Assembly: GCA_016870475.1 (NCBI GenBank)
Contig: VGBO01000012.1
Span: 1 to 50,655 of the forward strand
Source: Actinomycetota bacterium
GTDB lineage: Bacteria > Actinomycetota > Acidimicrobiia > Acidimicrobiales > CAIXPF01
Length of the DNA: 50,655 nt
Direction: 5' to 3'
The notes beneath the pieces were generated by a model. The model made no database searches, was not told the DNA's origin, and saw nothing but the letters and a program-made list of their open reading frames with translations. The position numbers were made by a program, and so were the translations under genes. Positions 7,445 to 34,613 of the stretch are shown here, one piece after another (positions within the stretch are counted from its first letter, which is position 1; every line of letters starts with the position of its first letter).

Positions 7445-7460
7445 GCGGACGGGGGCTCAG
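7441..7460. terminator. Shared hairpin at the convergent xseB / hydrolase stops
   Basis: CTGAGC, 8-nt loop, GCTCAG. The TGA of xseB (7442-7444) and the TCA of the facing gene (7457-7459) sit in opposite arms. It could act on both strands. Confidence 0.55.
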
Positions 7461-8125: not shown

Positions 8126-8133
8126 GGAGCGGG

Positions 8134-8139
8134 ACCCTA
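8134..8139 (-). promoter_or_regulatory. TANNNT -10 box of the hydrolase-like gene
   Basis: TAGGGT on the minus strand is 8 nt before GTG 8125. It lies only 26 bp from the divergent TAGGGT of the fur-like gene. Confidence 0.55.
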
Positions 8140-8165
8140 CCGCCGTCGGCCCCGACCCCTCTCGC

Positions 8166-8171
8166 TAGGGT
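8166..8171 (+). promoter_or_regulatory. TANNNT -10 box of the fur-like gene
   Basis: TAGGGT is 8 nt before ATG 8180. The region between it and the divergent box is a natural place for regulator binding, but I see no clear 19-bp Fur-type palindrome. Confidence 0.55.
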
Positions 8172-8179
8172 GAGCGGCG

Positions 8180-8611
8180 ATGTCCGCCGACGTGCACGAC
8201 CTCGCCGCCCGGCGACTCGCCGCCGCCGGCCAGCGCTACACCCCGAGACGACGTGCGCTCGTCGACCGGCTGCACGCCGCCGACGCACCCATCACCGTCA
8301 CCGACATCGCCGACGGACGGGCCCTCGCCACCTCCACGGTGTACCGGAACCTGCGGGTGCTCGAGGACGCGGGCGTGGTCGCCCGCATCGTCACCTCGGG
8401 TGACTTCGCCTGCTTCGAGCTCGCCGAGGAGCTCGGCTCCCACCACCACCACCTGATCTGCCGGAACTGCCACGCCGTCGCCGACTTCGACGTCCCCCAC
8501 GACCTCGAGGGCGCCCTCCACGACCTGCCCGACCTCGTCCGCACCGGGACCGGCTTCCACGCCGACCGGCACCGCCTCGACCTGCTCGGCACCTGCGCCG
8601 CCTGCAGCTGA
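8180..8611 (+). CDS. Fur-family metal-dependent transcriptional regulator
   Basis: A 143-residue protein with the Fur layout. The N-terminal winged helix includes AAAGQRYTPRRRALVDRL and the recognition part ATSTVYRNLRVLEDAGVV. The metal/dimer domain has HHHH at about 88-91, then C94-x2-C97, and a second C-x2-C pair at the very end (C139, C142), which form the structural zinc site. The sequence does not decide between Fur, Zur, PerR or Mur; the His cluster and two CxxC pairs look Zur-like. It starts 8 nt after its own -10 box. prfC follows 10 nt after the stop and may be co-transcribed. Confidence 0.9.
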   Translation: MSADVHDLAARRLAAAGQRYTPRRRALVDRLHAADAPITVTDIADGRALATSTVYRNLRVLEDAGVVARIVTSGDFACFELAEELGSHHHHLICRNCHAVADFDVPHDLEGALHDLPDLVRTGTGFHADRHRLDLLGTCAACS

Positions 8612-8621
8612 GAGAACTCCC

Positions 8622-10214
8622 ATGACCCACGACGTCATCGCCGAAGCGGCGCGCCGCCGCACCTTCGCGATCATCTCCCACCCCGACGCCGGCAAGACGA
8701 CGCTCACCGAGAAGTTCCTGCTCTACGGCGGCGCGCTCACCGGCGCCGGATCGGTGAAGGCGAGGTCCGGCGGCCGGGCCGCCGCATCGGACTGGATGGA
8801 ACTCGAGCAGAAGCGCGGGATCTCGATCTCGTCGACCGCGCTGCAGTTCCCCTACCGGGACGCAGCGGTGAACCTGCTCGACACCCCCGGCCACCGCGAC
8901 TTCTCCGAGGACACCTACCGGGTGCTCGCGGCGTGCGACGCTGCGATCATGGTCCTCGACGCGGCCAAGGGCATCGAACCGCAGACCCTCAAGCTCTTCG
9001 AGGTGTGCCGCGAACGACGCATGCCGCTCCTCACGTTCTTCAACAAGTGGGACCGGCCCGGCAGGGAGATCCTCGAGCTGCTCGACGAGATCGAACAACT
9101 CCTCGGCATCCCGGCCACCCCGGTCACGTGGCCGGTCGGCATCGCCGGTGACTTCCGTGGGGTCGTCGACCGGCGCGACGGCACCTACACGCGGTACACG
9201 CGGGTCGCCCGCGGCGCACAGATCGCCCCCGAGGAGGAGGTCGAACCGGCCCGGGCCGCCGCCGAGGAGGGCGACGCGTGGACGACCGCGCAGGAGGAGC
9301 TCGAACTCCTCCACGAGATCGGCGCCGACCTCGACGTCGCATCGTTCCGACGCAACGAGTCCACACCCGCCTTCTTCGGATCAGCGCTCACCAACTTCGG
9401 TGTCGCGAAGCTCCTCGACGCCGTGATCGACCTCGTCCCGCCGCCCACCGACCGCCCCACCGCCGACGGCGGCACCCGGCCGATCGACGCGCCCTTCAGC
9501 GGGTTCGTGTTCAAGGTCCAGGCGAACATGGACCCCGCCCACCGCGACCGGATCGCGTTCCTGCGCGTGTGCTCGGGGCGGTTCGAGCGCGGCATGGTCG
9601 TCACCCACGACCGCACCGGCAAACCGTTCGCCACCAAGTACGCGGCGACGCTGTTCGGCCAGGACCGTTCGACCGTGGAGGAGGCGTACCCGGGCGACGT
9701 GATCGGCCTGGTCAACGCGACGGACGTCCGGGTCGGCGACGCCCTCTATGACCCGACCGGCCCGCCCGTGTCGTTCCCACCGATCCCGAGCTTCGCCCCC
9801 GAGCACTTCATGACCGCCCGGGTGCGGGACACCGGACGGTTCAAGCAGTTCCGCCGCGGCGTTGCGCAGCTCGACGAGGAAGGCGTCGTGCAGGTGCTGC
9901 GCGACCGCGACCTCGGCGACCAGGCACCGGTGCTCGCCGCGGTCGGCCGGCTGCAGTTCGAGGTCGCCGTCCACCGGCTCGAGCACGAGTTCGGCGCCCC
10001 GACCGAACTGTCGGCGACGAGCTACCGGGTCGCCCGGCGGACCGACGAGACCTCCGAGACGGAACTCCGACGGATGCGCGGCGTCGCCGTGCTGCAACGG
10101 GCCGACGGCACCCGGTTCGCGCTGTTCGAGTCGCCCTACTGGCTCGAACGCGTCGAACAGGACCACCCCGACCTGCTACTCGAACGGCTCGTCGCCGAAG
10201 GCACCGCCGGCTGA
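8622..10214 (+). CDS. prfC: Peptide chain release factor 3
   Basis: RF3 is the GTPase that removes RF1/RF2 from the ribosome after termination. The 530-residue length fits. It has P-loop SHPDAGKTTLTEKFLLYGGA, switch II LDTPGHRDFSEDTYR and the NKWDRPGRE base-specificity motif. The insertion AGSVKARSGGRAAASDWMEL then EQKRGISI separates RF3 from EF-G. Domains II and III (FVFKVQANMDPAHRDRIAFL) follow. ATG 8622 has GAGAG just upstream. It converges with an MFS gene. Confidence 0.96.
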   Translation: MTHDVIAEAARRRTFAIISHPDAGKTTLTEKFLLYGGALTGAGSVKARSGGRAAASDWMELEQKRGISISSTALQFPYRDAAVNLLDTPGHRDFSEDTYRVLAACDAAIMVLDAAKGIEPQTLKLFEVCRERRMPLLTFFNKWDRPGREILELLDEIEQLLGIPATPVTWPVGIAGDFRGVVDRRDGTYTRYTRVARGAQIAPEEEVEPARAAAEEGDAWTTAQEELELLHEIGADLDVASFRRNESTPAFFGSALTNFGVAKLLDAVIDLVPPPTDRPTADGGTRPIDAPFSGFVFKVQANMDPAHRDRIAFLRVCSGRFERGMVVTHDRTGKPFATKYAATLFGQDRSTVEEAYPGDVIGLVNATDVRVGDALYDPTGPPVSFPPIPSFAPEHFMTARVRDTGRFKQFRRGVAQLDEEGVVQVLRDRDLGDQAPVLAAVGRLQFEVAVHRLEHEFGAPTELSATSYRVARRTDETSETELRRMRGVAVLQRADGTRFALFESPYWLERVEQDHPDLLLERLVAEGTAG

Positions 10215-10238
10215 GCCGGCCCGGGGCTTCTCAGGCGG
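10207..10238. terminator. Shared hairpin at the convergent prfC / MFS stops
   Basis: CCGGCTGAG pairs with CTCAGGCGG (one mismatch). The prfC TGA (10212-10214) and the TCA of the facing MFS gene (10231-10233) are in opposite arms. Confidence 0.5.
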
Positions 10239-11508
10239 GAACGGCGGCGGCGGCCGCCCGTTCGGCGACCACCCGCTGATGCTGTTCGGCGGGTCCGGCC
10301 GCCAGGAACAGCACGAACGCCAACGCGGAGGAACCCGCCGCGACGAGATAGCTCAGGCGGTAATCGCTCAGGTCGTGCAGCACACCCATCGCCGACGGAC
10401 CGACACCGACCCCGATCGTGGTGATGAGCTGGGCGAAGCTGTAGATCCGCGGGTACTCCCGCACACCGAACGCATCGGCGAGCAGCAACGGCTGCAACAT
10501 GAGCAGGTTGCCGACCGACAGGCCGAAGATCACGCACGTCACGAGCAGCATCGTGGATGTCTCCGCGAACGCGAACATCGCGAGCGCCACGCCCTGCACG
10601 ACGATCAGCACCGTCGAGAACTTCTTCACCGGGTAGCGCGAGGCCACGACCCCGCCGGCGAGCCGACCGCACACCGACGACCCGGCGACCACCGTCACCG
10701 ACAGGGCCGCCATCCACTCCTGGCGTTCGGTCACCAGCTTCACCTGCTGGGCGATCCCGCCGACCTGGCCGAACATGATGCACAGGTACGCCGCCGCAGC
10801 GAACGCGTAGAACCTCGTCCGGCGCGCCTCCGCGAACGTGTAGCCCGCCGGAGGCGCCAACGGCCCGCCCGACGCCGGAGCCGGATCGCCGTCGGGGTAC
10901 TGGCCGACTGCGGCGGGCGACGACCGCACGACGAAGATCGTCACCGGCAAGCTGACCGCCACCCACACGAGCGCGAGCCACGGTGTCACCGCCGCGATCC
11001 CTTGGCTCTTCACGAGCGACGCCACGAACGGGGTCACCACGATCCCACCAGCCGACAGACCCGTCGACGCCACCGACAACGCCACCGACCGCCGACGCAC
11101 GAACCAGCGCGCCACCGTCGTCGTCGCCGGCACGAGACCCGACAGGGCGAACCCGATGCCGAACACGACGTTCGCACCGAACATCTGCCACTCGGCCTCG
11201 GCCCGACCGATCAACAACAATCCGCACGCTGCGATCAGTGAGCCGACCACGATGATGCGCCGGACGTCGATGCGCTGCATGTACGGCGCCGCCAGGTACC
11301 CGGCGAGACCCGACACCACGAAGAACACGGCGGTACCCGTGCTCGTCACGCCCGTCGACCAGCCCCGCTCCCGCACGAGCGCGTTCAGGAACACCGACTG
11401 GGCGTAGAACCCCATGCCCGACGAGGTCATCAGCACGACGAACAGGCCGGCGATCACCCACCAACCCCGGAACGCCTTCGTGTTCGCCACCGCTGCGTTG
11501 TCATCCAT
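10231..11508 (-). CDS. MFS transporter, monocarboxylate/oxalate-formate type
   Basis: A 425-residue protein with 12 predicted membrane helices, for example WWVIAGLFVVLMTSSGMGFY and VFFVVSGLAGYLAAPY. The opening FRGWWVIAGLFVVLM and the conserved YLAAPYMQRIDVRRI loop match the oxalate/formate antiporter and monocarboxylate transporter groups of the major facilitator superfamily. A likely role is organic-acid exchange across the inner membrane; the substrate is not determined. ATG 11508 lies 9 nt after TAGGCT on the minus strand. The divergent neighbour is an FAH-fold hydrolase, so it might feed that pathway (inference only). Confidence 0.82.
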   Translation of the reverse strand: MDDNAAVANTKAFRGWWVIAGLFVVLMTSSGMGFYAQSVFLNALVRERGWSTGVTSTGTAVFFVVSGLAGYLAAPYMQRIDVRRIIVVGSLIAACGLLLIGRAEAEWQMFGANVVFGIGFALSGLVPATTTVARWFVRRRSVALSVASTGLSAGGIVVTPFVASLVKSQGIAAVTPWLALVWVAVSLPVTIFVVRSSPAAVGQYPDGDPAPASGGPLAPPAGYTFAEARRTRFYAFAAAAYLCIMFGQVGGIAQQVKLVTERQEWMAALSVTVVAGSSVCGRLAGGVVASRYPVKKFSTVLIVVQGVALAMFAFAETSTMLLVTCVIFGLSVGNLLMLQPLLLADAFGVREYPRIYSFAQLITTIGVGVGPSAMGVLHDLSDYRLSYLVAAGSSALAFVLFLAAGPAEQHQRVVAERAAAAAVPA

Positions 11509-11571: not shown

Positions 11572-12429
11572 GTGCAGCTCGTCACCTACATCGGCCCCGG
11601 CCGCCGCCCCACCCTCGGTGCCGTCCTCGGCGAAGGTGTGGTCGACCTCACCGCCCGCCTCGACCCCGACCACGGCACGATGCGCGGCCTGCTCGCCGGT
11701 GGGTCCGACGCCCTCGACCGGGCGCGCCACGTCGCCGCCACCGAAGGACCCGACGTGCTCGTCGGCGCGGTCACGCTGCTCCCGCCCGTGCCCGACCCGG
11801 CCCGCATCCTCTGCGCCGGGGTGAACTACGAGGCGCACCGGATCGAGACGGGGCGCGACCCGACCCTGCAACCGACGATCTTCACCCGGTTCCCGTCGTC
11901 GCTCGTCGGCGCCGGCACGCCGCTCACCAAACCACAGGAGAGCGACCGGTACGACTACGAGGGCGAACTCGCCGTCGTGATCGGCACGACCTGTCGGCGT
12001 GTCGCCGTCGCCGACGCCCTCGCCCACGTCGCCGGCTACGCGTGCTTCATGGACGGCACGGCGCGCGACTACCAGCGACTCACCACACAGTTCACCCCCG
12101 GCAAGAACTTCGACCGGTCCGGAGCGTTCGGGCCGTGGATCACCACCGCCGACGAGATCCCCGACCCGCAGGCGCTCCGCCTGCAGACCGTCGTCGACGG
12201 CGAGGTCCGCCAGGACACCACCACCGACCTGATGATCCACACCGTCGCCGAACTGATCGCCTTCTGCTCCACGTTCACCACCCTCGAGCCCGGCGACGTG
12301 ATCGCCACCGGCACCCCCGGCGGGGTCGGCGACCGGCACGACCCGCCGCGCTACCTGCGCGCCGGCGCGCTCGTCGACGTCGCCGTGACCGGCGTCGGAC
12401 GGCTCACGAACACCGTCGTCGACGGGTGA
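11572..12429 (+). CDS. Fumarylacetoacetate hydrolase (FAH) family protein
   Basis: A 285-residue member of the FAH superfamily, whose members cleave or decarboxylate beta-diketo acids in aromatic and sugar-acid breakdown. The catalytic domain starts near ILCAGVNYEAHRIE. Metal ligands are the ExE pair in DYEGELAVVIG (about 129-131) and the Asp in CFMDGTARDYQR (about 161). The TPGKNFDRSGAFGPWI motif and the closing LEPGDVIATGTPGGVG are canonical. The exact substrate is unknown. It begins a run of four rightward genes; the next gene may start as an overlapping GTGA or at 12483. Confidence 0.88.
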   Translation: MQLVTYIGPGRRPTLGAVLGEGVVDLTARLDPDHGTMRGLLAGGSDALDRARHVAATEGPDVLVGAVTLLPPVPDPARILCAGVNYEAHRIETGRDPTLQPTIFTRFPSSLVGAGTPLTKPQESDRYDYEGELAVVIGTTCRRVAVADALAHVAGYACFMDGTARDYQRLTTQFTPGKNFDRSGAFGPWITTADEIPDPQALRLQTVVDGEVRQDTTTDLMIHTVAELIAFCSTFTTLEPGDVIATGTPGGVGDRHDPPRYLRAGALVDVAVTGVGRLTNTVVDG

Positions 12430-12469
12430 GCGACCGGGCACCGGCCGTCACGACGGCAACGGCCGGCGC

Positions 12470-12475
12470 TACGGT
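12470..12475 (+). promoter_or_regulatory. TANNNT -10 box of the MBL-fold gene
   Basis: TACGGT is 7 nt before GTG 12483, so this gene may be transcribed separately from the FAH gene. Confidence 0.45.
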
Positions 12476-12482
12476 CCCGACC

Positions 12483-13502
12483 GTGGACGCACTGCGACTG
12501 CACGACCGGGACTACGCACGAGGCCTGCAGGAGATCGCGGACGGGGTGTTCGCCTACCTCCAACCCGACGGCGGCTGGTGCTTGTCCAACGCCGGGCTCG
12601 TCCGCGTCGGCGGCGAGAGCCTGCTCGTCGACACCCTCACCGACCTCCCGCGCACCCGGACCATGCTCGACACGATGGCGCCGATCACCGCCACCGCGCC
12701 GATCCGTCGACTCGCGATCACCCACGGCAACCTCGACCACTACTACGGCAACCAGCTCGTGGACGGTGCCGAGATCATCGCCTCGCGTGCCACCGCCGAC
12801 GACATCGCGGACGGTCCGACCCCGGCGTCGATGCAGGCGATGCTGCACACCGACCTCGGAGCCGAACTGAACGGCTTCCTCCGCCACGCGTTCGGGTCCT
12901 TCGACTGGACCGGCATCACCGTCACCCCGCCGACCCGCACGTTCGAGGACCGGCTCGACCTCGACGTCGGTGGCACGCCGGTCGAACTCATCGAGGTCGG
13001 CCCGGCACACACCCACGGCGACACCATCTGCCACCTCCCCGACCGACGGATCGTGTTCACCGGCGACATCCTCTTCGTACACGGGACCCCCATCGTGTGG
13101 GCGGGTCCGTTCGCCAACTGGTACCGGGCATGCGACACCCTCCTCGGCCTGCACGCCGACGTGTACGTGCCGGGCCACGGTCCGCTGACCGACCGGCGCG
13201 GCGTGGAGACCGTGCGCTCCTACCTCGACCACGTGCACCGGGAGGCCCGACTGCGCTTCGACGCCGGGATGTCCTCCCTCGACGCCACCTTCGACATCGA
13301 CCTCGGTGCGTTCGCCGACCTCGGCGACGCCGAACGGCTCGCCATCAACGTCGTCGCCGCCTACCGGGAGTTCGATCCGTCCGGCGACGAACCCAACGAC
13401 CTGCTGGAGCTGCTGCGTCGCATGGCCGCACTCCGCAACCGGACCCACCGCGGTCGCCGAGGTGGCGCCGCCACCGAACCGCAGAACAGGATGCACCCGT
13501 GA
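12483..13502 (+). CDS. Metallo-beta-lactamase-fold hydrolase with an HxNxDH metal motif
   Basis: A 339-residue GloB-like metallo-hydrolase. The first metal motif reads ITHGNLDHYYGN (about 79-90): H-G-N-L-D-H, with Asn where the second His of HxHxDH normally is. This fits the known THxNxDHxxGN subgroup. The other ligands are present: AHTHGD, VFTGDILF and VPGHGP. The helical C-terminus ends in a basic tail. GTG 12483 is chosen for its TACGGT box. GTG 12426 would overlap the FAH stop as GTGA and add 19 residues. The stop overlaps the next start (GTGA). Substrate unknown. Confidence 0.85.
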   Translation: MDALRLHDRDYARGLQEIADGVFAYLQPDGGWCLSNAGLVRVGGESLLVDTLTDLPRTRTMLDTMAPITATAPIRRLAITHGNLDHYYGNQLVDGAEIIASRATADDIADGPTPASMQAMLHTDLGAELNGFLRHAFGSFDWTGITVTPPTRTFEDRLDLDVGGTPVELIEVGPAHTHGDTICHLPDRRIVFTGDILFVHGTPIVWAGPFANWYRACDTLLGLHADVYVPGHGPLTDRRGVETVRSYLDHVHREARLRFDAGMSSLDATFDIDLGAFADLGDAERLAINVVAAYREFDPSGDEPNDLLELLRRMAALRNRTHRGRRGGAATEPQNRMHP

Positions 13503-14509
13503 AGATGCGCAAGCTCACCACCACCGACGCCTTCGTCCTGCTCGACCTCGAGGACGGACCCGTCCACGTCGGGACCGTGCGCAGCGCACCGAAGATCCTC
13601 CAGAGCGGCGCCGAGATGCTCGCCCGGTCGGTCACCTACTCCTTCGCGGCGTTCGGCATCGAAGCCGGCGGTGCCTCCGCCGGCGTGAACGCCGCCCCCG
13701 AGGACCGTGCCGCAGCCGTCGCAGCGTTCGCTGCCGAGGTCGCCGGCTGGGACGGGATCCGTCTCGACGCCGGCAAGGGCGTCGACGCCGCGGACCTCGC
13801 CGAGCTGCAGGCCGCGGACCCCCGGCCCGCCGTCCTGACCGACGCCGTCGACGGCATCACCGGCGCCGAACGGCTCACCCTCGCCGGGATCGTCGCCGCT
13901 GCGACCGCCGCTGCTGGCGCCCTCTCCGGCGCACGGGTCGCGATCGAGGGGTTCGGCCCCGCCGGCCTCGCGCTCGCCCGGGCCGTCGAAGCCGCCGGCG
14001 GCGGGGTCACCGCCGTCGCCACCGGCGCCGGCACGCTCCTCGCCCCCGACGGCATCTCGGCCGACACCCTCGCCGCCGGATGGGACGCCCACGGTGAAGG
14101 CCTCGTCAAGCAGCTCGAGGGCACCCAGAAGCCCGGCTGGGCGATCTGGGGTGCCCCCGCCGACATCGTGTTCACCGGGTCGAAGGCCGGGGCGCTCACC
14201 CACGAGGGCGTCCCGCACCTCGGCGCCCGAGCCGTCGTCCCGACCGGGCCGGTCCCCGTCACCACGAAGGCCGTCGCCGCGATGCTCCGCAGCGGCGTGA
14301 TCTACGTCCCCGACTTCCTCGCCCTCGCCGCGCCGCTCCTCGTCGGGGCCGAAGCCGCGAGCGTCGACGACGCACCCGGACGGATCACCGAGGCGGTCGG
14401 CCGCCATGCCGGTCACCCCGACGGGCTCCTCCTCGGTGCGTGCGCCGCCTCCGAGGACTTCCTGCGGACCTGGCGTCCGGCACCGCCCTTCGGCCGACCG
14501 CTCGCCTGA
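13499..14509 (+). CDS. Glu/Leu/Phe/Val-dehydrogenase-like protein without the catalytic lysine
   Basis: A 336-residue protein with both halves of the amino-acid dehydrogenase fold. The N-terminal GGASAGVNAAPEDR (about 55-68) aligns with the family GGAKGGVNxDP motif, but the substrate-binding Lys is replaced by Ser. The Rossmann domain has ARVAIEGFGPAGLALARAVE (about 147-166). The region DIVFTGSKAGALTHEGVPHL then GVIYVPDFLALAAP matches the end of glutamate dehydrogenase. It is shorter than hexameric GDH (about 410-450) and may not use an amino acid. It overlaps the MBL gene by GTGA; ATG 13505 is an alternative start. Confidence 0.72.
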   Translation: MKMRKLTTTDAFVLLDLEDGPVHVGTVRSAPKILQSGAEMLARSVTYSFAAFGIEAGGASAGVNAAPEDRAAAVAAFAAEVAGWDGIRLDAGKGVDAADLAELQAADPRPAVLTDAVDGITGAERLTLAGIVAAATAAAGALSGARVAIEGFGPAGLALARAVEAAGGGVTAVATGAGTLLAPDGISADTLAAGWDAHGEGLVKQLEGTQKPGWAIWGAPADIVFTGSKAGALTHEGVPHLGARAVVPTGPVPVTTKAVAAMLRSGVIYVPDFLALAAPLLVGAEAASVDDAPGRITEAVGRHAGHPDGLLLGACAASEDFLRTWRPAPPFGRPLA

Positions 14510-20370: not shown

Positions 20371-22071
20371 CTACGACCCCGTCGACACCACGGCCGTCAC
20401 CGCGACGAGGCGGAACCCGAGGCCCCCGTCGTGGACGACGTCGACGAGCGTCCGCAACGGCCCCACCCCCGCCTCGACGTTGTCGAGTGCCTCGGCGACG
20501 AACGCCGGCGACCCGTACACGACGACCGGGCGACGGACCCCGTTGCGGATCTCCGCAGCGAATTCCGGGGCGAGCACGCCCCGGTCATGGGGCAGGAGGC
20601 GGCCGGCGACGTGCGCGCCGTATGCGGCGGTGTTGTTGCTCGCCTGCCCGGTCTCGGCCACGAAGGAGGCCGCAGCGTCGTCCGGGACGGCGTCCATCCG
20701 TTCGACGAACCAGACGAACTCGTCGAGGATCTGCGGGGTGCGCAGCTCGTCGTTGCGGAACACCAGGTCGTAGCGCGGCGAGTAGTTGATCCCGAACACC
20801 GGGTCGGGCTCGTAGGGCGGCGGGCCGAGGTGCGCGACGGCGACGACGACGAGCAACACCGGCGCGGCCACCACGGGTCGGACGGCGACGACCACCACCG
20901 CGACCACGCCGAGCGCGACGAACGCCGGCCAGGACGGGACGTGCGCCCACGACGGCAACCCGACGGCGAGCACCGCCAGCCAACCCGCCGTCGTCACGCC
21001 GACCGCCCAGGTCGGCAACCGTTCGAACGTGCGCACGAGCACCACCGCCGTTGCCGTGCCGAACGCCGGGGTGATGAACGCCCAGTAGTAGGGGATCTCG
21101 AGTCCGCTCTGCCCGGCGAAGAGCTGCGAGCCGATGTGGATCGCGTACTGGACGGCGCACAGCACGAGCAGCGCCCGCTCGACCCGGCCGAACCGCACCG
21201 CCCCCGTCGCCCGCAGCGCTGCGGCTGCGACGAGCAGCACCGCCGGCGCCCATAGCCAGGTGAACGCACCGAGCCAACCGAGCGACGGCGACCGGAACAC
21301 GTCCTGGGTCTGCGGGTTGACGACGAGGAAGGCCAACGTCGGACGGTAGATGTTGCGCACCCCGAACCCGACGAAGAAGAACGCCCACCCGGCGACGAAC
21401 GTGACCACGCCCGCAGCGCCGGCGACCACCGCGTGGCGGACCAGCGCACGCACCCCCGACCAGGAGAGCACGACACCGAGCAGCACCGTCGTCGACACGA
21501 GCACGATCGACCACGGGTTGGCGATGCCGAGCAGCGCCGCCAGCACACCGACCGCCGCAGCGCTGCGGTCGTCGTGCCGGGGACGGGTGCAGAGCGCGAC
21601 GAGGACGAACCCGAGGCTCACCGCCACGTACTCGACGTAGTCGGAGAAGAACGCCCGCACGAACACGGGCAGGGTGAGGACGACCGTGCCGGCAGCGACG
21701 GTGTGGGCGCGACGCCATCCGCAACGGCGTCCGAGCGCGGCGACGGCCGCCAGCACGGCGGCGGCCAGCGCCCACCGCAGGAGCAGCCGACCGGTCGCAT
21801 AGGGGAACACGGCGTCGACCGCGGCGAGCGGCAGGTAGGCGGACCAGCGGCTGACGAAGTACCAGTTCTGACCGACCGCAGCGAGGAAATCGTCGAGGTT
21901 CGTGCCGAGGCCGGTGTAGAAGCGCGGGTCGAGATCGTTCGACAACAGCGCGTACGGGTCCGGTCGGAGCACCACGAACAGCACGACTGGGAGCACGGCG
22001 ACGACGACGAACCGCTCGAGGCGCGCCCGGTCCGCCGTCGGACGGCGGGGACGGCGCCGTGTCCCGGTCAC
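20371..22071 (-). CDS. Polytopic membrane protein, probable GT-C glycosyltransferase
   Basis: A 566-residue inner-membrane protein with about 13 hydrophobic helices and a final soluble domain of about 110 residues. After the first helix the loop reads LLSNDLDPRFYTGLG; the D-L-D fits the acidic motif that GT-C enzymes carry in their first extracytoplasmic loop. Helices include LLLRWALAAAVLAAVAALG and VVAAPVLLVVVAVAHLG. GT-C enzymes move a sugar from polyprenyl phosphate to an acceptor outside the membrane. Its GTG overlaps the stop of the aminotransferase gene (GTGA), which itself overlaps an ArnC-like gene, so an ArnT-like role is the best guess. No family match is certain. Confidence 0.65.
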   Translation of the reverse strand: MTGTRRRPRRPTADRARLERFVVVAVLPVVLFVVLRPDPYALLSNDLDPRFYTGLGTNLDDFLAAVGQNWYFVSRWSAYLPLAAVDAVFPYATGRLLLRWALAAAVLAAVAALGRRCGWRRAHTVAAGTVVLTLPVFVRAFFSDYVEYVAVSLGFVLVALCTRPRHDDRSAAAVGVLAALLGIANPWSIVLVSTTVLLGVVLSWSGVRALVRHAVVAGAAGVVTFVAGWAFFFVGFGVRNIYRPTLAFLVVNPQTQDVFRSPSLGWLGAFTWLWAPAVLLVAAAALRATGAVRFGRVERALLVLCAVQYAIHIGSQLFAGQSGLEIPYYWAFITPAFGTATAVVLVRTFERLPTWAVGVTTAGWLAVLAVGLPSWAHVPSWPAFVALGVVAVVVVAVRPVVAAPVLLVVVAVAHLGPPPYEPDPVFGINYSPRYDLVFRNDELRTPQILDEFVWFVERMDAVPDDAAASFVAETGQASNNTAAYGAHVAGRLLPHDRGVLAPEFAAEIRNGVRRPVVVYGSPAFVAEALDNVEAGVGPLRTLVDVVHDGGLGFRLVAVTAVVSTGS

Positions 22072-23195
22072 GGTCGGAACGAGGTCACCGCGTCGAGCAC
22101 CCGATCGACCTCGACGTCGGTCAGGCCGGCGAACAGCGGCAGGCGGACGAGCGTGTCGCCCGCGTCCTCGGTGACCGGATGCTGTCCGGGTCGGCCGCCG
22201 AGACGTTCGCCGACCGTGGAGAGGTGCAACGGCTGGTAGTGGAACACCGCGAGCACCTCACGCTCACGCAGGTGAGCGATGAAGCGAGTGCGCACCTCGA
22301 GCGACGCGAACCGCAGGTGGTAGAGGTGCGCGGTGTGCGGTGCGGTCGCGGGGTCGAGCGGCCGTCGCACCCCGTGCTCCGCCGCCCAACCGGCCGTCGC
22401 CGCGTGGTAGCGGTCCCAGATCGCGTGCCGTCGCGCCTGGAGGTCCTCGAACCGTTCGAGCTGGCCGACGAGCACGCCGGCGAGCAGATCCGAGAGCACC
22501 CACGACGACCCGACGTCGACCCAGGTGTACTTGTCGACCTGGCCGCGCAGGAACCGGCTGCGGTCGGTCCCCTTCTCGCGCAGGATCTCCGCCCGTTCCA
22601 CGAGGACCGGGTCGTTGCCGTGCAGCGCGCCGCCCTCGCCGCAGGTGACGTTCTTCGTCTCGTGGAAGCTGAGGGTGGACAGGTGCCCGAACGTACCGAG
22701 CACACCACCGTCTTCGACACCGAACAGCCCGTGAGCGTTGTCCTCCACGAGGAGCAGCCCGTGCCGGTCCGCGATCTCCCGGAACCGTCGCGGGGTCGCG
22801 CCGACGCCGCCGTAGTGCACGATGCAGATCGCCCGGGTTCGCTCGGTGATCGCCGCCTCGACGAGATCCGGACACAGGTTCAGCGTGTCCGGACGGACGT
22901 CGACGAACACCGGTGTCGCCCCGTGCAGCAGGAACGCCGACGCGGTCGACACGAACGTGTAGGCGGGCACGATCACCTCGTCGCCCGGCGCGAACCGGCC
23001 GAGCAGCGCGGCCATCTCGAGCGCGTGCGTGCAGGACGTCGTGAGCAACGTCCGACCCGTTCCGTGCCCGACCTCGAGCGCCGCCTCGGCGCGCCGGGTG
23101 AACGGACCGTTGCCCGAGACGTGGCCGTCGGCGACCGCCTGCGCGAGGTAGGCGAGCTCCTTGCCGTCGAAGGTCGCCCGGTTGAACGGGATCAT
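22068..23195 (-). CDS. rffA: dTDP-4-amino-4,6-dideoxygalactose transaminase (RffA/WecE type)
   Basis: A 375-residue PLP aminotransferase of the DegT/DnrJ/EryC1 family. It matches enterobacterial RffA/WecE along its length: MIPFNRATFDGKELAYL, TRRAEAALE, the PLP-lysine motif SFHETKN followed by GEGGAL, and ILREKGTDRSRFLRGQVDKY then TWVDVGSSW. RffA turns dTDP-4-keto-6-deoxyglucose into dTDP-Fuc4N with glutamate as donor. One difference is LVEDNAHG where VEDAAQG is usual, beside the cofactor. It overlaps the ArnC-like gene (ATGA) and the membrane-protein gene (GTGA). No rmlA or rmlB lies in the window to supply the substrate. Confidence 0.9.
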   Translation of the reverse strand: MIPFNRATFDGKELAYLAQAVADGHVSGNGPFTRRAEAALEVGHGTGRTLLTTSCTHALEMAALLGRFAPGDEVIVPAYTFVSTASAFLLHGATPVFVDVRPDTLNLCPDLVEAAITERTRAICIVHYGGVGATPRRFREIADRHGLLLVEDNAHGLFGVEDGGVLGTFGHLSTLSFHETKNVTCGEGGALHGNDPVLVERAEILREKGTDRSRFLRGQVDKYTWVDVGSSWVLSDLLAGVLVGQLERFEDLQARRHAIWDRYHAATAGWAAEHGVRRPLDPATAPHTAHLYHLRFASLEVRTRFIAHLREREVLAVFHYQPLHLSTVGERLGGRPGQHPVTEDAGDTLVRLPLFAGLTDVEVDRVLDAVTSFRP

Positions 23196-24163
23196 CGCGG
23201 GCCCTCCGGCAGAGAACGCCCGACCCGTTCGGCGACCACGTAGCTCGGTCGGCGCATCACCCGGAAGTGCATGCGGGCGAGGTACTCACCGATCACGCCG
23301 AGGGTCATGAGCTGCACCCCCGAGAAGATCGCGATCATCGAGGCGAGGAAGGGGAACCCCGGCGCCGAGCTTCCCGTCAGCAGCAGGCGACCCAGCACCC
23401 ACAGCAACAGGACGACCCCGAAGAACGCCGTCACGAGACCGACCGTCGTCGCCACCTGCAACGGGAGCGCGCTGTACCCGGTCGCGATGTCGATCGCGAA
23501 GCGGAAGAGGCGGCGGAACGTGTAGTTCGATCGGCCCGCGGCACGGTCGTGATGGGCGACGTCGCGCGCCGTGAACCGGGACGTCGACCACGACAGCAGC
23601 GCGTCCAACGACACGCCCGGGCCGAGGTCGGCGGCGAACCCGTCCCGCAACGCCGTGCGGAACACCCGGTAGGAGCTGAGCAGCGCTGCGTGCTCGACCC
23701 CGAGCACGCCGGACATCACCGTCCGAAGGCCGTTCGACCCGCCCCGACGCCACCGTCGCTGGGCCACCGCACGAGGTCGGCCGTAGACGACGTCGACGTC
23801 GTCGGTGAGCGCCGCGAGCAGTCCCGGCAGCTCCTCCGGCGGGTTCTGCAGGTCGTCGTCGAGGGTGGCGGTGAGCTCGTAGCGGGCGGTGCGCACACCG
23901 GCGAGTAACGCGCTGTGCTGGCCGGCGTTGCGACCGAGCCGAACCCCCATGACGTGGGCATGCTGCGCGGCGAGCTCCCGGACCACCGCCCACGTCGCCG
24001 CAGGGCTCCCGTCGTCGACGAGGACGACCTCGTGCGGCACCCCGGCGAGCGCGACGCCGATCCGTTCCACGAGCACCGGCAAGGTGTCGGTGCTGCGGTA
24101 CACCGGCACCACCACCGACACCCCGGGCACCGGATCGACGGGCATGGCACCGGTTCGGGACAC
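23192..24163 (-). CDS. ArnC/DPM-like polyprenyl-phosphate glycosyltransferase (GT2)
   Basis: A 323-residue family 2 glycosyltransferase with two C-terminal membrane helices. It carries VSVVVPVYRSTDTLPVLV, VVLVDDGSP, GRNAGQHSALLAGV, and TATLDDDLQNPPEELPGLL with the DxD metal site. The helices are PLQVATTVGLVTAFFGVVLL and LASMIAIFSGVQLMTLGVIG, followed by EYLARMHFRVMRRPSYVV. This is the ArnC/GtrB pattern, which attaches a nucleotide sugar to undecaprenyl or decaprenyl phosphate. GTG 24163 lies 6 nt after TAGAGT; an ATG seven codons in is an alternative. It is the first gene of the three-gene unit with rffA and the GT-C protein. Confidence 0.9.
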   Translation of the reverse strand: MSRTGAMPVDPVPGVSVVVPVYRSTDTLPVLVERIGVALAGVPHEVVLVDDGSPAATWAVVRELAAQHAHVMGVRLGRNAGQHSALLAGVRTARYELTATLDDDLQNPPEELPGLLAALTDDVDVVYGRPRAVAQRRWRRGGSNGLRTVMSGVLGVEHAALLSSYRVFRTALRDGFAADLGPGVSLDALLSWSTSRFTARDVAHHDRAAGRSNYTFRRLFRFAIDIATGYSALPLQVATTVGLVTAFFGVVLLLWVLGRLLLTGSSAPGFPFLASMIAIFSGVQLMTLGVIGEYLARMHFRVMRRPSYVVAERVGRSLPEGPR

Positions 24164-24216: not shown

Positions 24217-25089
24217 GTGGGTGCCACGGGGACGCCGGCGAGCGGGTTGATCGACGAGCTGGTGCGCCGCGGCTGGTCGCCGCCGCCCGTCGTCGACGGC
24301 GTGTACCGGCCCGCCGGGACCACCGACCCGGCCGCCGTGTCGTACCCCGGATCGGGGATCGACGTGCTCGCGAGCCACGCCGAGGGGAGCTGGTGGACCG
24401 CCCACCGCGCCGCATGGGCGGCACGCGAGCTCGCCGACCACGGGATCCGCTCACTGCTCGACGTGGGCGCCGGCAGTGGGTCGATGGCGGTCGCGCTACG
24501 CGCCGGCGGCGTCGACGTCGTCGGGGTCGAACCCCACCCGCACGGTGCAGCGGCGATCGCCGCCGCCGGGGTGGCCGCCGTCTGCGGTGGACTCGCCGAC
24601 CTCGCCCTCCCCGACGGGAGCGTGCCGGCGATCGGGTTCTTCGACGTGCTCGAACACCTCCCCGACCCCGTCGACGTGCTCCGCGAAGCCGCCCGGGTGC
24701 TCCGTCCCGACGGGGTCGTCCTCCTCGCCGTGCCCGCCTACCGGTGGTTGTGGAGCTCCGAGGACGAGCACGCCGGGCACTTCCGCCGCTACGACCGGGC
24801 GATGGTGCGCGCCGAGGCGCGGGCGGCCGGCCTGCTCGTCGTGCGGACCGAGCACCTGTTCGCGTCGCTCGTCCCGCTCGTCACCGCGGCCCGCCGGGTG
24901 CCCTACCTGCTCGGCAGGCGGCCCGACCCCGCCGCCGTCGACCGGACCGTCGGCCGCCAGCTCGACCCGCCCGCAGTACTCGCCCGCGCCGCAGGGATGG
25001 TGCTCGGCATCGAGAACCGCATCGCCCGGGTCGCACCCCTCCCGGTCGGCACGTCACTCGTCGCCGTGCTGCGTCGACCCTCCCGCTGA
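24217..25089 (+). CDS. Class I SAM methyltransferase next to the amino-sugar cassette
   Basis: A 290-residue methyltransferase of the UbiG-like type. Motif I is SLLDVGAGSGSMAVALRAGG; the acidic end of strand 2 is VVGVEPHP. FFDVLEHLPDPVDVLREAAR and VLRPDGVVLLAVPAY are the typical downstream motifs. The N-terminal 60 residues are an extra segment before the SAM fold. Such enzymes often methylate sugars or lipids beside glycosyltransferase genes. Here the gene diverges from the ArnC-like gene through overlapping promoters, so a sugar or lipid acceptor is possible (inference). It converges with lepB. Confidence 0.82.
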   Translation: MGATGTPASGLIDELVRRGWSPPPVVDGVYRPAGTTDPAAVSYPGSGIDVLASHAEGSWWTAHRAAWAARELADHGIRSLLDVGAGSGSMAVALRAGGVDVVGVEPHPHGAAAIAAAGVAAVCGGLADLALPDGSVPAIGFFDVLEHLPDPVDVLREAARVLRPDGVVLLAVPAYRWLWSSEDEHAGHFRRYDRAMVRAEARAAGLLVVRTEHLFASLVPLVTAARRVPYLLGRRPDPAAVDRTVGRQLDPPAVLARAAGMVLGIENRIARVAPLPVGTSLVAVLRRPSR

Positions 25090-30152: not shown

Positions 30153-31196
30153 GTGGCGGAGGAGATCGAGGTCGTCGTCGGCGACGCGGCGGATGCGCTC
30201 GCTGGCGTCGGCTCGTGCACGGTCGTCGCCGGGCCGACGGCCGCTGCCGCCATCCGCCTCGACCGGTTGACCCCACTCCGGACGATCACCCCCGGTTCGC
30301 TCGAGGAACTCGCGCTGGACCGGCTCGTCGAGTCCGAACGCAGGGTCGACGCGACGACCGTCGTCGGCGTCGGCGGTGGCGTCGCGCTCGACACCGCGAA
30401 GTACCTGGCGCTGCGTACCGGCAAGGACCTGCTCCTCGTACCGACGACGCTTGCATCACTCGCACCGTTCACCACCGAGGTCGCCCGACGGATCCGTCGG
30501 CAGATGACCCCGGTGGGCGACGTCGCCGGCCGCACCGTCGTCGACGTCGACCTGCTCGGCGGGGCGCCGGCGGCACGCAACCGGGCCGGGGCGGCGGAGG
30601 TGGTGGCCACGATCCCGGCGGTGTGGGACTGGCGGTTCGCCGACAGCCGCGACCGGGGTCTGCCCGTCTCCACGCAGGTCGTCGACGTCGCCGAACGGTG
30701 TCGGCGTCTCCTCGGCGAGGGGGCGGAGGAGGTCGCCGCGTGCACCCCGGCGGGGCTGCGCCTGCTCGCCGACCTGCTCGCCGCGCTCGGCACGGCATGC
30801 TCGAGGTCGGGGCACCGCCGGGTGGTCGACGGCTCGGAGCACACCTACGTCCAGTCCTTCGAGCACCGATTCGGCCCGCACCGCAGCTACGGCGGCCTGC
30901 TCGGTCTCGGCGCGGTCGCGATGAGCACGCTGCAGGCGTGGTTCGGGCTGTCCGCCGGCGGGCCGGTCGACCCGGCCGAGGCGATCGACCTGCTGAACCG
31001 TTGCCGGGTCGAGGCGAACCCAGGCCAGCTCGGCCTCGACGAGGGCACGTTCCGTGGGCTGCTCCGGCACACGGTCCGCTTCGCGGTCGGCGAGTTCCTG
31101 CCCTATTCGGTGCTGAACGAGGCCGACGTCAACTGGTCGATGTCGGAGGAGATGTGGCGCCACTGCTGGCGTGTCGACCGGGTCGAAGGGGTCTGA
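30153..31196 (+). CDS. Glycerol-1-phosphate-dehydrogenase-like (iron-alcohol-dehydrogenase fold) protein
   Basis: A 347-residue protein of the DHQ synthase / glycerol dehydrogenase fold. The nucleotide-binding part has VVGVGGGVALDTAKYLA and LLVPTTLASLAPFT. The metal region NRAGAAEVVATIPAVWDW has Glu where family members usually have Asp (G-x-A/G-D). The His part reads GSEHTYVQSFEHRFGPHRSY then GGLLGLG. It is closest in pattern to the EgsA/AraM group, which makes sn-glycerol-1-phosphate, but the changed ligand leaves metal use and substrate open. Its partner gene begins 4 nt after the stop, so they form a unit. Confidence 0.75.
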   Translation: MAEEIEVVVGDAADALAGVGSCTVVAGPTAAAAIRLDRLTPLRTITPGSLEELALDRLVESERRVDATTVVGVGGGVALDTAKYLALRTGKDLLLVPTTLASLAPFTTEVARRIRRQMTPVGDVAGRTVVDVDLLGGAPAARNRAGAAEVVATIPAVWDWRFADSRDRGLPVSTQVVDVAERCRRLLGEGAEEVAACTPAGLRLLADLLAALGTACSRSGHRRVVDGSEHTYVQSFEHRFGPHRSYGGLLGLGAVAMSTLQAWFGLSAGGPVDPAEAIDLLNRCRVEANPGQLGLDEGTFRGLLRHTVRFAVGEFLPYSVLNEADVNWSMSEEMWRHCWRVDRVEGV

Positions 31197-31200
31197 CCGG

Positions 31201-32256
31201 ATGACCGGAACGGTCGGGATCGTCCCCAACCCGGTGTCCGGAAAGGACATCCGACGGCTCGTCGCGAACGCCGCGTCCTCGACCCTCGCCGAGAAGTACA
31301 CGATCGTGCGTCGCGCCGTGCTCGGCGCCGTCGAGGCGGGCGCCGACCGGTTCCTGTTCCTCCGCGAGCCGCACGGCCTGTGCGCCCGGGCGGTCGAGAC
31401 CCTCACCCTCGACGGGGTGACCTTCGAACACGTGGCCGTCGAGACGCGCAACGACGAGACCGACACGACCCGCACGGTCGCCGCGATGCGCGAGGCCGGC
31501 GTCGGAGCGGTGATCGTGCTCGGCGGCGACGGGACGAGCCGGGCAGCGACACTCGGGTGGCGGGACGTGCCGCTGATCGCCATGTCGACGGGCACGAACA
31601 ACGTGTTCCCCCGGTTCGTGGAGGCGACGGTCGCCGGGGAGGCCGCCGGACTCGTCGCCGCCGGGCACGTGACCCTCGACGAGGTCGCTGCGGTGGCGAA
31701 GCTGGTCGAGGTCGTCGTCGAGGGCGACGATCGGGTCGACCTGGCGCTCATCGACGCGCTCGTCCTCGACGAACGTCTCGTCGGCGACCGGTCGCTGTTC
31801 GACCCGGCGAAGCTGCGGGTCGCGGTGCTGACCCGCGCCGAGCCGGCCTCGGTGGGCATCAGCTCGATCGGTGGGCTGGTGCACCCCTGCGGTGCAGCCG
31901 ACCCCGGCGGGGTGGTCGTGCGGTTCGCCCCACCGGCGGCCGCTCGTCGCCACCTACGCGCCCCGCTGGCGCCGGGCTGGTACGCGACCGTCGGCCTCGA
32001 CGACGTCGCCGCGCTCCCCGAGGGTGAACCCGTCGAGGTGGTCGGACCGGCCGTGCTGGCCTTCGACGGCGAACGGCAACGGTTCCTCGAGGCGGGCCGT
32101 CGGGCGGTGCTGCGGGTGCGACGAGCTGGCCCTCGGGTGATCGACACGACCCGGGCGCTCACCCTCGCCGCCGAACGCGGGGTGTTCGTGCACGCGGCCG
32201 GGTCGGTCGCGTTCCGCCCGGATGGGCCGCGTCACCTTCCGGGTGGCTGCTGCTGA
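31201..32256 (+). CDS. ATP-NAD-kinase-fold protein (AcoX-like)
   Basis: A 361-residue protein with NAD/diacylglycerol-kinase features: VGIVPNPVSGKDIRRLVANA at the start, VIVLGGDGTSRAA (the GGDGT nucleotide motif, about 103-115) and MSTGTNNVFPRF, matching the STGTNN motif of the ATP-NAD kinase/AcoX group. AcoX proteins occur beside acetoin dehydrogenase genes, which are absent here. It may phosphorylate a dinucleotide or other cofactor, but activity is not shown. ATG 31201 lies 4 nt after the dehydrogenase-like gene. The last 25 bp overlap the 3' end of the facing membrane-protein gene. Confidence 0.75.
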   Translation: MTGTVGIVPNPVSGKDIRRLVANAASSTLAEKYTIVRRAVLGAVEAGADRFLFLREPHGLCARAVETLTLDGVTFEHVAVETRNDETDTTRTVAAMREAGVGAVIVLGGDGTSRAATLGWRDVPLIAMSTGTNNVFPRFVEATVAGEAAGLVAAGHVTLDEVAAVAKLVEVVVEGDDRVDLALIDALVLDERLVGDRSLFDPAKLRVAVLTRAEPASVGISSIGGLVHPCGAADPGGVVVRFAPPAAARRHLRAPLAPGWYATVGLDDVAALPEGEPVEVVGPAVLAFDGERQRFLEAGRRAVLRVRRAGPRVIDTTRALTLAAERGVFVHAAGSVAFRPDGPRHLPGGCC

Positions 32257-34613
32257 ACTCCGCCCCGGCGACACCGGGGGAGCTCGGGGACCGACAGGTC
32301 GTTGTTCAGGAAATACTCGTCACGGGGCGCGAGGTCACGGTTGTAGAGCCGCCTCGGGACGTCGCGGAGCAGCTCCCCGTTCTGCACGCAGGCCGATCGA
32401 AGTTCGCCGAGGTACCGCCGCAGCGAACCCCGTTGCTCGTCCCGATAGGCGGTCGGGTCGACCCGGCCGAACCGTTCGAGCAGGCCGGCCGGATCGATGG
32501 TGATCGGGGCCTTCGACGCGACCATGAACCGGGAGCTCCCGTAGGCGGCGACCTCGAGCGCCTCCACATGCGGGAAGACCTGCGCCGCGGTGTTGAGGAC
32601 CCGGCTCGTCGGGATCCACTGGGTGAAGATGCCACCGTCGTTCAGACGTTCGGCGACGAGCTCGTAGAACTCCTTCGAGTACAGGCTGCCGCTGTAGCCG
32701 CTCTGCGGGCGCAGCGTATCGACGGTGATCACGTCGTAGCGGTCGTCGACGACGAGGAGATGCTCACGACCGTCGCCGACGACGGTCTTCACACGGGGGT
32801 CGGCGAACAGCCGAGTGAGCTCGAACGCCGGGCGTTGCTCGGCGAGCGTCTCGAGAAGCGGGTACTGACCGCCGCAGAGCTCCACGACCTCGACCCTTCG
32901 CACCGACGGGTCAGTGGCCATGCCGTAGGCGGTGGCTCCGATACCGAGTCCGATGGCGAGCACGTTCGTCGGTTCAGGGTGGGCGAGTGCCGGGACGAGG
33001 CCGATGAGCACGTGGTAGTCGTCGAAGGGGTACCCGTTCTGCGACGAGCCGTTGATGTGCAGGATGTCGTTGCCGGTGCCGTCACGCCTGAGGGCGACGG
33101 CACAGCTCCGCTGCTCCTCGAGCACGAGCGAACCGTCGGCCGAGTGCAGGAACGACCACAGGCGGTCGTTCGACGGCGCACCGACGAGCAGTGCGGCGCC
33201 GAGCACCCCGACCGCTGCGACGCCGGCCGTCGACCGGCGACCGACCCGGCTCGTCGCGAGCGAGGCGACGACGACACCGCCGAGCAGCAGACCGGCGAGG
33301 AGTCGCAACGTCCCGGCGGTGCCGAGGCGATCGATCAGCACGTACCCGGTCAGCAGGGTTCCGGCGACGTTCCCGACGATGTTCGAGAACAGCAGGGTTC
33401 CCGTCCGGCGGCCGAGCTGGTCGATGCGGTCGCTCACCGTCGCCTGGATGCAGGGGTACGCGGCGCCGGCGCACAGCACGGGAACCGCCATGAACAACAT
33501 CGGTGCGACCACGTAGGCGAACACGAACCCGGCGAACCCTCGCGCCGAGGTGATCTGACCGAACCCGATGTTGAACCCGTCCGAGGCGAAGTATTCCTCG
33601 AGCGGCCCGCCGAGTCCGACGCGGGGCAGGACCTCCAGGAGCACGAACGGTCCGGCCAACGCGCCGACCGCCGCGCCGGCCTGCAGGAGCAGGAACCACC
33701 GTTGGGTGTCGACGCCTCGTCGGACGAGCCGGGACCCGATCGCTGCGCCGATGCCGAACAGCAGCAGGTAGAGCGACAGCACGTGGGCGAAGCTGTAGGA
33801 GTTCGACCGCATCACCGTGTCGACGAGACGGAAGAACACCTGCTCGAGCCCGAGTGCGACCGCGCCGGTTCCGGCGTAGGCGACCATCCACGGCCAGATC
33901 GGCCGTCCCTCGACCGGCGTCGGCTCCGCCGTTGCGGCCACGGCGGTCCGCTCCCCAACGTCATCGATCGTGGTGTCGGAGCGCGTCCGAGCGAACACGA
34001 CGAGCCCGACGACGAGGTTCACCCCGCCGGCGAACAGGGTGACCGGGACGAACCCGAACGTACCGACGAGCACCCATCCGGCGACCGCGGCCCCCGCAGC
34101 GGCACCCATCGTGTTGATCCCGTAGAGACGGCCGACGACGGGGCCGGCGTCGTGCAGACGATGGACCACCCCTCGGGTGAGGAGCGGGAGCGAGAGCCCC
34201 ATGAGGGTGGTCGGAACGACGACGACCGCAGCGTTGAACGCGAACGTCGCCGCCGCCGAGCCCAGACTCGGGGCGATCGCCCGGTACAGGTCGTAGAAGA
34301 GCCAGGTGCTCACCGCTGCGAACGCCCCGATCGCGACGTTCGCGCCGGCGAAGAACTCGAGCGAGCGGCGAGGGCCGACCCGGTCGGCGAGACGACCGCC
34401 GAGCAGGCTGCCGAGCCCGAGTCCGCCGAGGAACGCGGCGACGACGGTCGTCGTCGACGCCAGGTCGACGCCGGAGTGGAGCGAGATCACCCGCTGCCAC
34501 GTCACCTGCAGGGTGAGCGCGGAGAAGCCGGTCGCAGCGAACAGGACGGCGAGGAGACGACGGAGGCCGTCACCCGAGGTGGAGGGGCGGGAGGTCCCGT
34601 TCGTGACGGCCAT
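32232..34613 (-). CDS. Membrane protein with a C-terminal spermidine-synthase-like domain
   Basis: A 793-residue fusion. About 500 N-terminal residues form some 12-14 membrane helices (LLAVLFAATGFSALTLQVTW; VVVVPTTLMGLSLPLLTRGV). The C-terminal domain has the spermidine-synthase Rossmann pattern: VLAIGLGIGATAYGM, VEVVELCGGQYPLLE, TVVGDGREHLLVVDDRYDVI. The catalytic region reads VDTLRPQSGYSGSLYSKEFY. The first Asp is kept but the D-x-D-P of true spermidine synthases is replaced by TLRP. It is therefore probably not an aminopropyl transferase but one of the widespread membrane-fused homologues of unknown role. A minus-strand TAGCGT at 34629-34634 precedes it. Confidence 0.82.
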   Translation of the reverse strand: MAVTNGTSRPSTSGDGLRRLLAVLFAATGFSALTLQVTWQRVISLHSGVDLASTTTVVAAFLGGLGLGSLLGGRLADRVGPRRSLEFFAGANVAIGAFAAVSTWLFYDLYRAIAPSLGSAAATFAFNAAVVVVPTTLMGLSLPLLTRGVVHRLHDAGPVVGRLYGINTMGAAAGAAVAGWVLVGTFGFVPVTLFAGGVNLVVGLVVFARTRSDTTIDDVGERTAVAATAEPTPVEGRPIWPWMVAYAGTGAVALGLEQVFFRLVDTVMRSNSYSFAHVLSLYLLLFGIGAAIGSRLVRRGVDTQRWFLLLQAGAAVGALAGPFVLLEVLPRVGLGGPLEEYFASDGFNIGFGQITSARGFAGFVFAYVVAPMLFMAVPVLCAGAAYPCIQATVSDRIDQLGRRTGTLLFSNIVGNVAGTLLTGYVLIDRLGTAGTLRLLAGLLLGGVVVASLATSRVGRRSTAGVAAVGVLGAALLVGAPSNDRLWSFLHSADGSLVLEEQRSCAVALRRDGTGNDILHINGSSQNGYPFDDYHVLIGLVPALAHPEPTNVLAIGLGIGATAYGMATDPSVRRVEVVELCGGQYPLLETLAEQRPAFELTRLFADPRVKTVVGDGREHLLVVDDRYDVITVDTLRPQSGYSGSLYSKEFYELVAERLNDGGIFTQWIPTSRVLNTAAQVFPHVEALEVAAYGSSRFMVASKAPITIDPAGLLERFGRVDPTAYRDEQRGSLRRYLGELRSACVQNGELLRDVPRRLYNRDLAPRDEYFLNNDLSVPELPRCRRGGVQQQPPGR
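32263..32279 (+). terminator. Hairpin after the NAD-kinase-like gene
   Basis: CCCCGG, loop CGACA, CCGGGG, starting 7 nt after the plus-strand stop. It lies inside the last codons of the facing gene. Confidence 0.45.

Follow-up and report, generated by a model that had tools for sequence, protein, structure and literature searches.

Three overlapping genes at an actinobacterial locus

The window analysed here is a 50,655-nucleotide stretch, positions 1-50,655 of contig VGBO01000012.1 (assembly GCA_016870475.1), from an Actinomycetota bacterium whose draft genome of 2.45 Mb is 98.7% complete. Within it we examined a cassette of three overlapping genes, named GT2, AT and TM below, which likely make a rare, lipid-linked amino sugar and transfer it to the cell envelope, together with a gene divergent from GT2:

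23192-24163, reverse strand: GT2, ArnC/GtrB-type enzyme with two C-terminal membrane helices, putative undecaprenyl-phosphate 4-amino-4,6-dideoxyhexose synthase
22068-23195, reverse strand: AT, by homology a WecE/RffA-type dTDP-4-keto-6-deoxyglucose 4-aminotransferase, with pyridoxal phosphate (PLP) lysine K181
20371-22071, reverse strand: TM, predicted membrane glycosyltransferase of GT-C fold from an unnamed family, with 13 transmembrane helices and, at roughly residues 446-560, a small extracytoplasmic domain at the C terminus
24217-25089, forward strand: S-adenosylmethionine (SAM)-dependent methyltransferase (Methyltransf_23/11), divergent from GT2, putative fourth member of the cassette

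All three cassette open reading frames (ORFs) lie on the reverse strand and overlap by 4 nt, at ATGA between GT2 and AT (23192-23195) and at GTGA between AT and TM (22068-22071). Coordinates and overlaps thus agreed with the initial annotation of this DNA, and the motifs that it had listed (NAGQHSA, DDDLQNP and SFHETKN) were all found in the sequences. Homology confirmed that the ORFs are genes rather than chance frames, because AT and GT2 have strong Pfam matches and other genomes contain clear homologues of TM. Large antisense ORFs also run through these high-GC genes; in our judgement they are not genes, and they were dismissed.

AT is a WecE-type aminotransferase

AT matched PF01041 (6.9e-80) and passed NF008687, the NCBIfam equivalog model for dTDP-4-amino-4,6-dideoxygalactose transaminase, with 475.7 bits against a cut-off of 375; with the stricter TIGR02379 it scored slightly below the cut-off (429.8 versus 434.85 bits). 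The best PDB match was the WecE-type structure 6blg (1.3e-108). A full-length alignment with Escherichia coli WecE showed 47.6% identity over 374 columns and placed the PLP lysine K181 at the same position in both proteins. Together, these similarities support AT as a WecE/RffA-type aminotransferase, as initially annotated. The alternative of AT as an ArnB was rejected: AT is 30% identical to ArnB versus 48% to WecE, and reached 184.4 bits with the ArnB model NF008658, whose cut-off is 631. As AT is not ArnB, the likeness of the cassette to the Arn pathway is one of shared logic, not of membership. The closest relatives of AT came from actinobacterial metagenome-assembled genomes, several of them from Acidimicrobiia; the host is thus probably acidimicrobial.

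The initial annotation had also suggested looking for rmlA and rmlB elsewhere in the genome. An RmlB that passes its cut-off and an RmlA-like protein that falls short of its own are encoded near each other on another contig, and the presence of both makes it plausible that the host could supply AT with dTDP-4-keto-6-deoxyglucose.

GT2 resembles the sugar-lipid synthase ArnC

GT2 matched PF00535 (2.1e-22) and could be aligned along its full length both to solved ArnC structures (6.6e-42) and to the GtrB-type protein sll0501. It is 32% identical to E. coli ArnC and 25% to GtrB, carries two hydrophobic C-terminal segments, and has the motif DDDLQNP from residue 102, where E. coli ArnC has DADLQNP from residue 100. 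Scores with the ArnC and PgfS models were much higher than with other GT2 models. These data support the assignment of GT2 as an ArnC-like polyprenyl-phosphate sugar synthase of the ArnC/GtrB type, and the end-to-end alignment bore out the ArnC-like protein with two C-terminal helices that had been annotated. GT2 was not accepted as a true ArnC orthologue: its full-length match to the ArnC model NF007986 (5.2e-45) gave 153.8 bits against an equivalog cut-off of 529, and it is therefore called ArnC-like, a member of the same fold family only.

TM has a predicted GT-C fold

Sequence searches of Pfam, NCBIfam and the PDB returned no match for TM. We therefore relied on homologues, sought in related genomes up to phylum level; the one quoted here is 41% identical (E 4.6e-106), few lay beyond one taxonomic family, and none was found in plasmids. 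A profile of nine sequences gave just two, non-significant, hits in the family and PDB searches, and did not align significantly with E. coli ArnT or with a PMT_2-type protein.

An AlphaFold2 model from a two-row alignment was unusable, with a mean predicted local distance difference test score (pLDDT) of 39, and we used the nine-row alignment instead. The resulting model (pLDDT 75.4, predicted template modelling score 0.71) has 13 membrane helices, the number initially annotated, and a small C-terminal domain. When this model was compared with VIA-align, the top 49 PDB entries were all GT-C enzymes (Z 20.9-10.7), followed by an entry at 5.5; Pmt4 scored 20.9, Pmt1-Pmt2 down to 19.3, ArnT 18.0 and AftB 10.7. 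Foldseek placed ArnT with undecaprenyl phosphate first (3.1e-5, the sole match below 0.001), with the mycobacterial arabinosyltransferases AftD and AftA also at the head of its list. The model thus supports for TM a GT-C fold, the fold of ArnT, which attaches aminoarabinose to lipid A in Gram-negative bacteria, in line with the original guess, and TM appears to belong to a family of GT-C enzymes that has not yet been described and has no Pfam model.

Invariant residues among the nine homologues include P37, D48, P49, F51, Y52, R75, P81, R99, P135, D144 and Y145. The D-L-D noted earlier in the first loop is present, within N-D-L-D-P at positions 45-49, of which only D48-P49 is invariant. The short loops of the model hold 11 Lys/Arg in 37 residues inside and three in 52 outside; by this positive-inside count, the N terminus would lie inside and the C terminus outside, with D48 in the first and D144 in the second outside loop.

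A methyltransferase occupies the WecD slot

In the tree of GT2 proteins, the window GT2 groups with those of four other loci (L011, L012, L013 and L071; support 100/99). All four of these nearest relatives have a WecD-like GNAT gene divergent from GT2. In the window, this slot is instead taken by the SAM-methyltransferase gene (PF13489, 3e-17), and no WecD-like match was found in the window. Nor did searches of the host genome, one of which had no positive control, yield a convincing WecD (best 22.5 bits, cut-off 195). Similar methyltransferases lie at most 4 kb from wecE in 13 of 80 loci. We infer that acetylation has been lost here, perhaps in favour of methylation. Since the window has no WecD, and a methyltransferase where WecD would stand, the predicted sugar is probably a free-amine or methylated 4-amino-4,6-dideoxygalactose (Fuc4N) rather than Fuc4NAc.

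The gene set recurs in relatives, in varying order

Six TM-family loci, the window included, had enough sequence context to be compared; two further ones, L141 and L135, run off the end of a contig and were not counted. Those outside the window are:

L091, 6258-11391, reverse strand: GT2, NAD-dependent epimerase in place of WecE, methyltransferase, TM family
L140: GT2, WecE and methyltransferase on the same strand, TM on the opposite one, Wzm-type permease nearby
L142: TM facing methyltransferase-GT2, WecE further along
L148: tandem array of GT2, methyltransferase and TM, with WecE and RmlA/RmlB-like genes further out
L149, 8671-11487, forward strand: TM-family member, the second copy in genome G1176, without neighbouring sugar genes

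An ArnC/GtrB-like GT2 lies beside TM in five of the six (the window, L091, L140, L142 and L148, not L149), and WecE is near TM in four of the six, across three families; TM, GT2 and WecE thus occur together in three further genomes. The order of the genes differs in each locus. A strictly conserved three-gene order, which the initial annotation had proposed to look for in relatives, was therefore rejected, as the TM loci are rearranged and L011 has no TM, although the gene set itself recurs. As read from their sequences, L091, L140 and L142 are polysaccharide loci, which include GT4-type genes and transporters of Wzm/Wzt type.

Several of these loci carry further genes that touch on the sugar. 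The epimerase that replaces WecE in L091 suggests that the donor sugar of the TM family seems exchangeable. Genes for ATP-grasp, FkbM-type methyltransferase and Gfo/Idh oxidoreductase proteins adjoin WecE and GT2 in L140 (941-7138, reverse strand), where the ATP-grasp enzyme could link the amine of Fuc4N to an amino acid or acid. L142 has paired methyltransferase and hexapeptide-repeat acyltransferase genes (12065-13566) with a glyoxalase-family gene near, and look-alike ORFs are found at 3399-4960 of L148; this pair is perhaps another tailoring set.

GT2-WecE modules are found across many phyla

To view the pair independently of TM, we collected 80 WecE relatives by similarity to AT alone and counted as a partner any ArnC-like GT2 scoring at least 150 bits that shares the strand of WecE and lies no more than 5 kb from it. 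Such a partner was present in 49 of the 80 loci, and 42 of these 49 also had a GNAT resembling WecD, or a WbqC protein, in range; the GNAT members match WecD models at scores under the cut-off. The partners in the tree come from Actinomycetota, Chloroflexota, Acidobacteriota, Myxococcota, Verrucomicrobiota and others. The module is thus not special to actinobacteria. In 29 of the 49 loci, polytopic proteins of at least 400 residues, some with a PMT_2 domain, are encoded no more than 6 kb away; these were too divergent to align with TM. Some modules among L011-L090 have WbqC and a methyltransferase in WecD's stead. If this widespread module, mostly with an acyltransferase, works as proposed here, undecaprenyl phosphate (Und-P)-linked Fuc4N derivatives may be much more common than enterobacterial common antigen, the best-studied use of this sugar, would lead one to expect.

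A proposed route for envelope decoration

The computed gene identities, GT-C fold, co-occurrence and rmlA/rmlB genes together make it likely that the cassette combines donor synthesis with a GT-C enzyme, in the manner of multi-component transmembrane glycosylation, and decorates the envelope with a Fuc4N-derived sugar. In the pathway that we infer from them, the unlinked RmlA and RmlB would make dTDP-4-keto-6-deoxy-D-glucose, which the WecE-type AT would aminate to dTDP-Fuc4N. The ArnC-like GT2 would load the sugar onto Und-P at the inner face of the membrane, a flippase from outside the cassette, perhaps an unlinked GtrA protein, would turn the lipid over, and TM would transfer the sugar to an envelope acceptor on the outside. 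The methyltransferase would tailor the sugar, whose amine would be free or methylated, not acetylated. Our first guess for the acceptor is a cell-surface polymer, because relatives of TM sit in ABC-transporter polysaccharide loci. The cassette had been described as a minimal system, which overlooks the methyltransferase in the WecD slot, the unlinked rmlA and rmlB and the lack of a linked flippase.

Several observations weigh against this proposal. The closest GT2-WecE relatives found (L011, L012 and L013) have no TM protein and, judging by gene content, the GT2-WecE pair does not need one. At the sequence level, there is no link between TM and ArnT. The first outside loop of the TM model (residues 37-74), which holds D48, has a pLDDT below 50; because this loop is poorly modelled, we do not claim a residue-level match between D48 and its counterpart D55, the first-loop acid of ArnT (PMC7801869). 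ArnC's own substrate is formylated; the cassette has neither a formyl- nor an acetyltransferase linked to it. No flippase (GtrA, Wzx, SMR/MATE) was seen among the neighbouring genes scanned. Elsewhere in the host genome there are two GtrA proteins, at C4:12865 and at C2:7825, the latter sharing one long open frame with an adjacent GT2 match. Contig C2 also drew our attention in its own right: at 7273-10982 (L123, L130), the frame with the GT2 and GtrA matches stands beside a large membrane ORF, and this region probably encodes a second transmembrane glycosylation system of the same genome.

Among other explanations, TM could be PMT-like and O-glycosylate secreted proteins, instead of a polymer, with Fuc4N or a derivative. 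Pmt4 and Pmt1-Pmt2 exceed ArnT in structural Z score (20.9-19.3 versus 18.0), and GT39 protein O-mannosylation is among the subjects treated for actinobacteria in PMC11727336. However, Foldseek puts ArnT, AftD and AftA first, the homologues of TM in L091, L140 and L142 sit in Wzm/Wzt-type polysaccharide loci with GT4-type genes, and the fold says nothing on the acceptor; we regard a protein acceptor as unlikely, at perhaps one chance in a handful. It is more improbable still that GT2 and AT make an Und-P-linked Fuc4N derivative while TM, adjacent by accident, uses another lipid-linked sugar. The GT2-WecE pair of L011 with its divergent WecD has unrelated neighbours and no TM, L149 carries a TM-family gene away from any sugar genes, and L091 pairs this family with an epimerase rather than WecE. 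Yet an accidental neighbour would hardly account for the 4-nt translational overlap or for the recurrence of GT2 and WecE with TM described above, and L091 retains GT2, as would fit a GT-C family with a variable donor sugar.

Two further alternatives concern the sugar and its carrier. In E. coli, WecE supplies WecF, an enzyme whose substrate in the synthesis of enterobacterial common antigen is a diphosphate-linked oligosaccharide, and GT2 might similarly be a cytoplasmic WecF-like transferase onto a lipid-linked oligosaccharide, with TM as polymerase or ligase. We give this very little credence: GT2 aligns with ArnC end to end, C-terminal helices included, it scores far above other GT2 models with those of ArnC and PgfS, and no initiating phosphoglycosyltransferase, Wzx or Wzy was found among the window genes scanned. 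A more serious contender, though still on the improbable side, is that the methyltransferase is unrelated to the cassette and an unlinked GNAT acetylates the amine, giving plain Und-P-Fuc4NAc. GNATs are numerous in genomes, and the weak WecD-like matches elsewhere in the host genome would be compatible with it. The retention of WecD divergent from GT2 in the four nearest relatives makes the methyltransferase look like a replacement, and the presence of the same type near wecE in other loci also argues against an unrelated gene.

Relation to known glycosylation systems

Multi-component transmembrane glycosylation is known in Gram-positive bacteria, for which PMC8035078 outlines GtlA-GtcA-GtlB and CsbB-GtcA-YfhO. 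As depicted there, these three-component systems share with the cassette a GT-A enzyme making a C55-P-sugar, a polytopic GT-C protein (8-13 transmembrane helices, acidic outside-loop motif) and a Gram-positive-type cell. The cassette differs in having its own amino-sugar gene (WecE), no linked flippase and a GT-C family without a Pfam model, and also in its predicted sugar, that source naming Gal and GlcNAc. Three-component glycosylation also occurs in Gram-negative O-polysaccharides, such as the undecaprenyl-phospho-ribofuranose system with GT136, which has an Und-P donor synthase, a separate flippase and a GT-C enzyme in one locus and for which ArnT likewise served as structural yardstick; it differs in its pentofuranose donor, its MATE flippase in the locus and its O-polysaccharide acceptor (PMC11127046).

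Like the Arn (PmrHFIJKLM) pathway, the cassette has an aminotransferase, an Und-P sugar synthase and a GT-C transferase in series, with GT2 32% identical to ArnC and TM predicted to have the ArnT fold. It is nevertheless not a member of that pathway: its aminotransferase is WecE-type and dTDP-linked, lipid A is not expected as acceptor, and ArnA, ArnD, ArnE and ArnF were absent among the genes scanned, a scan limited to neighbours of the cassette. With the Fuc4NAc branch of enterobacterial common antigen (RffG, RffH, WecD, WecE, WecF), it shares a WecE 48% identical and rmlA/rmlB in the genome. That branch includes WecD, and close relatives of the cassette carry a WecD-like gene, but the window does not; the sugar there goes to lipid II via WecF, whereas here it would go to Und-P via the ArnC-like GT2.

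The overall plan is thus already known, and what is new here is the family of the GT-C enzyme, a synthesis gene for the amino sugar within the cassette, and a sugar that is probably not acetylated. A description of an ArnC-like GT2, WecE and a GT-C protein as a unit was not found in the part of the literature covered by our search, to which we attach little weight. More speculatively, and with the balance of probability against it, a WecE, an ArnC-like synthase, a methyltransferase replacing WecD and an undescribed GT-C family could place 4-amino-4,6-dideoxygalactose, its amine free or N-methylated, on a Gram-positive-type envelope, as a functional parallel of the Arn polymyxin-resistance route. 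If the route proposed above is right, the known systems of surface glycosylation would gain a 4-amino-4,6-dideoxyhexose donor that is lipid-linked, together with a new family of GT-C enzymes, and the cassette would offer a testable case of Arn-like positive-charge decoration outside Gram-negative bacteria.

Other features of the window

Away from the cassette, two overlapping forward-strand ORFs (30153-31196 and 31171-32256) encode an iron-alcohol-dehydrogenase family protein (PF13685 Fe-ADH_2, 34 bits), which looks like a relative of glycerol-1-phosphate dehydrogenase, and an ATP-NAD kinase/DAGK-like protein. A 793-residue ORF on the reverse strand (32232-34613) seems, as judged by eye, to join a membrane domain to one that resembles spermidine synthase.

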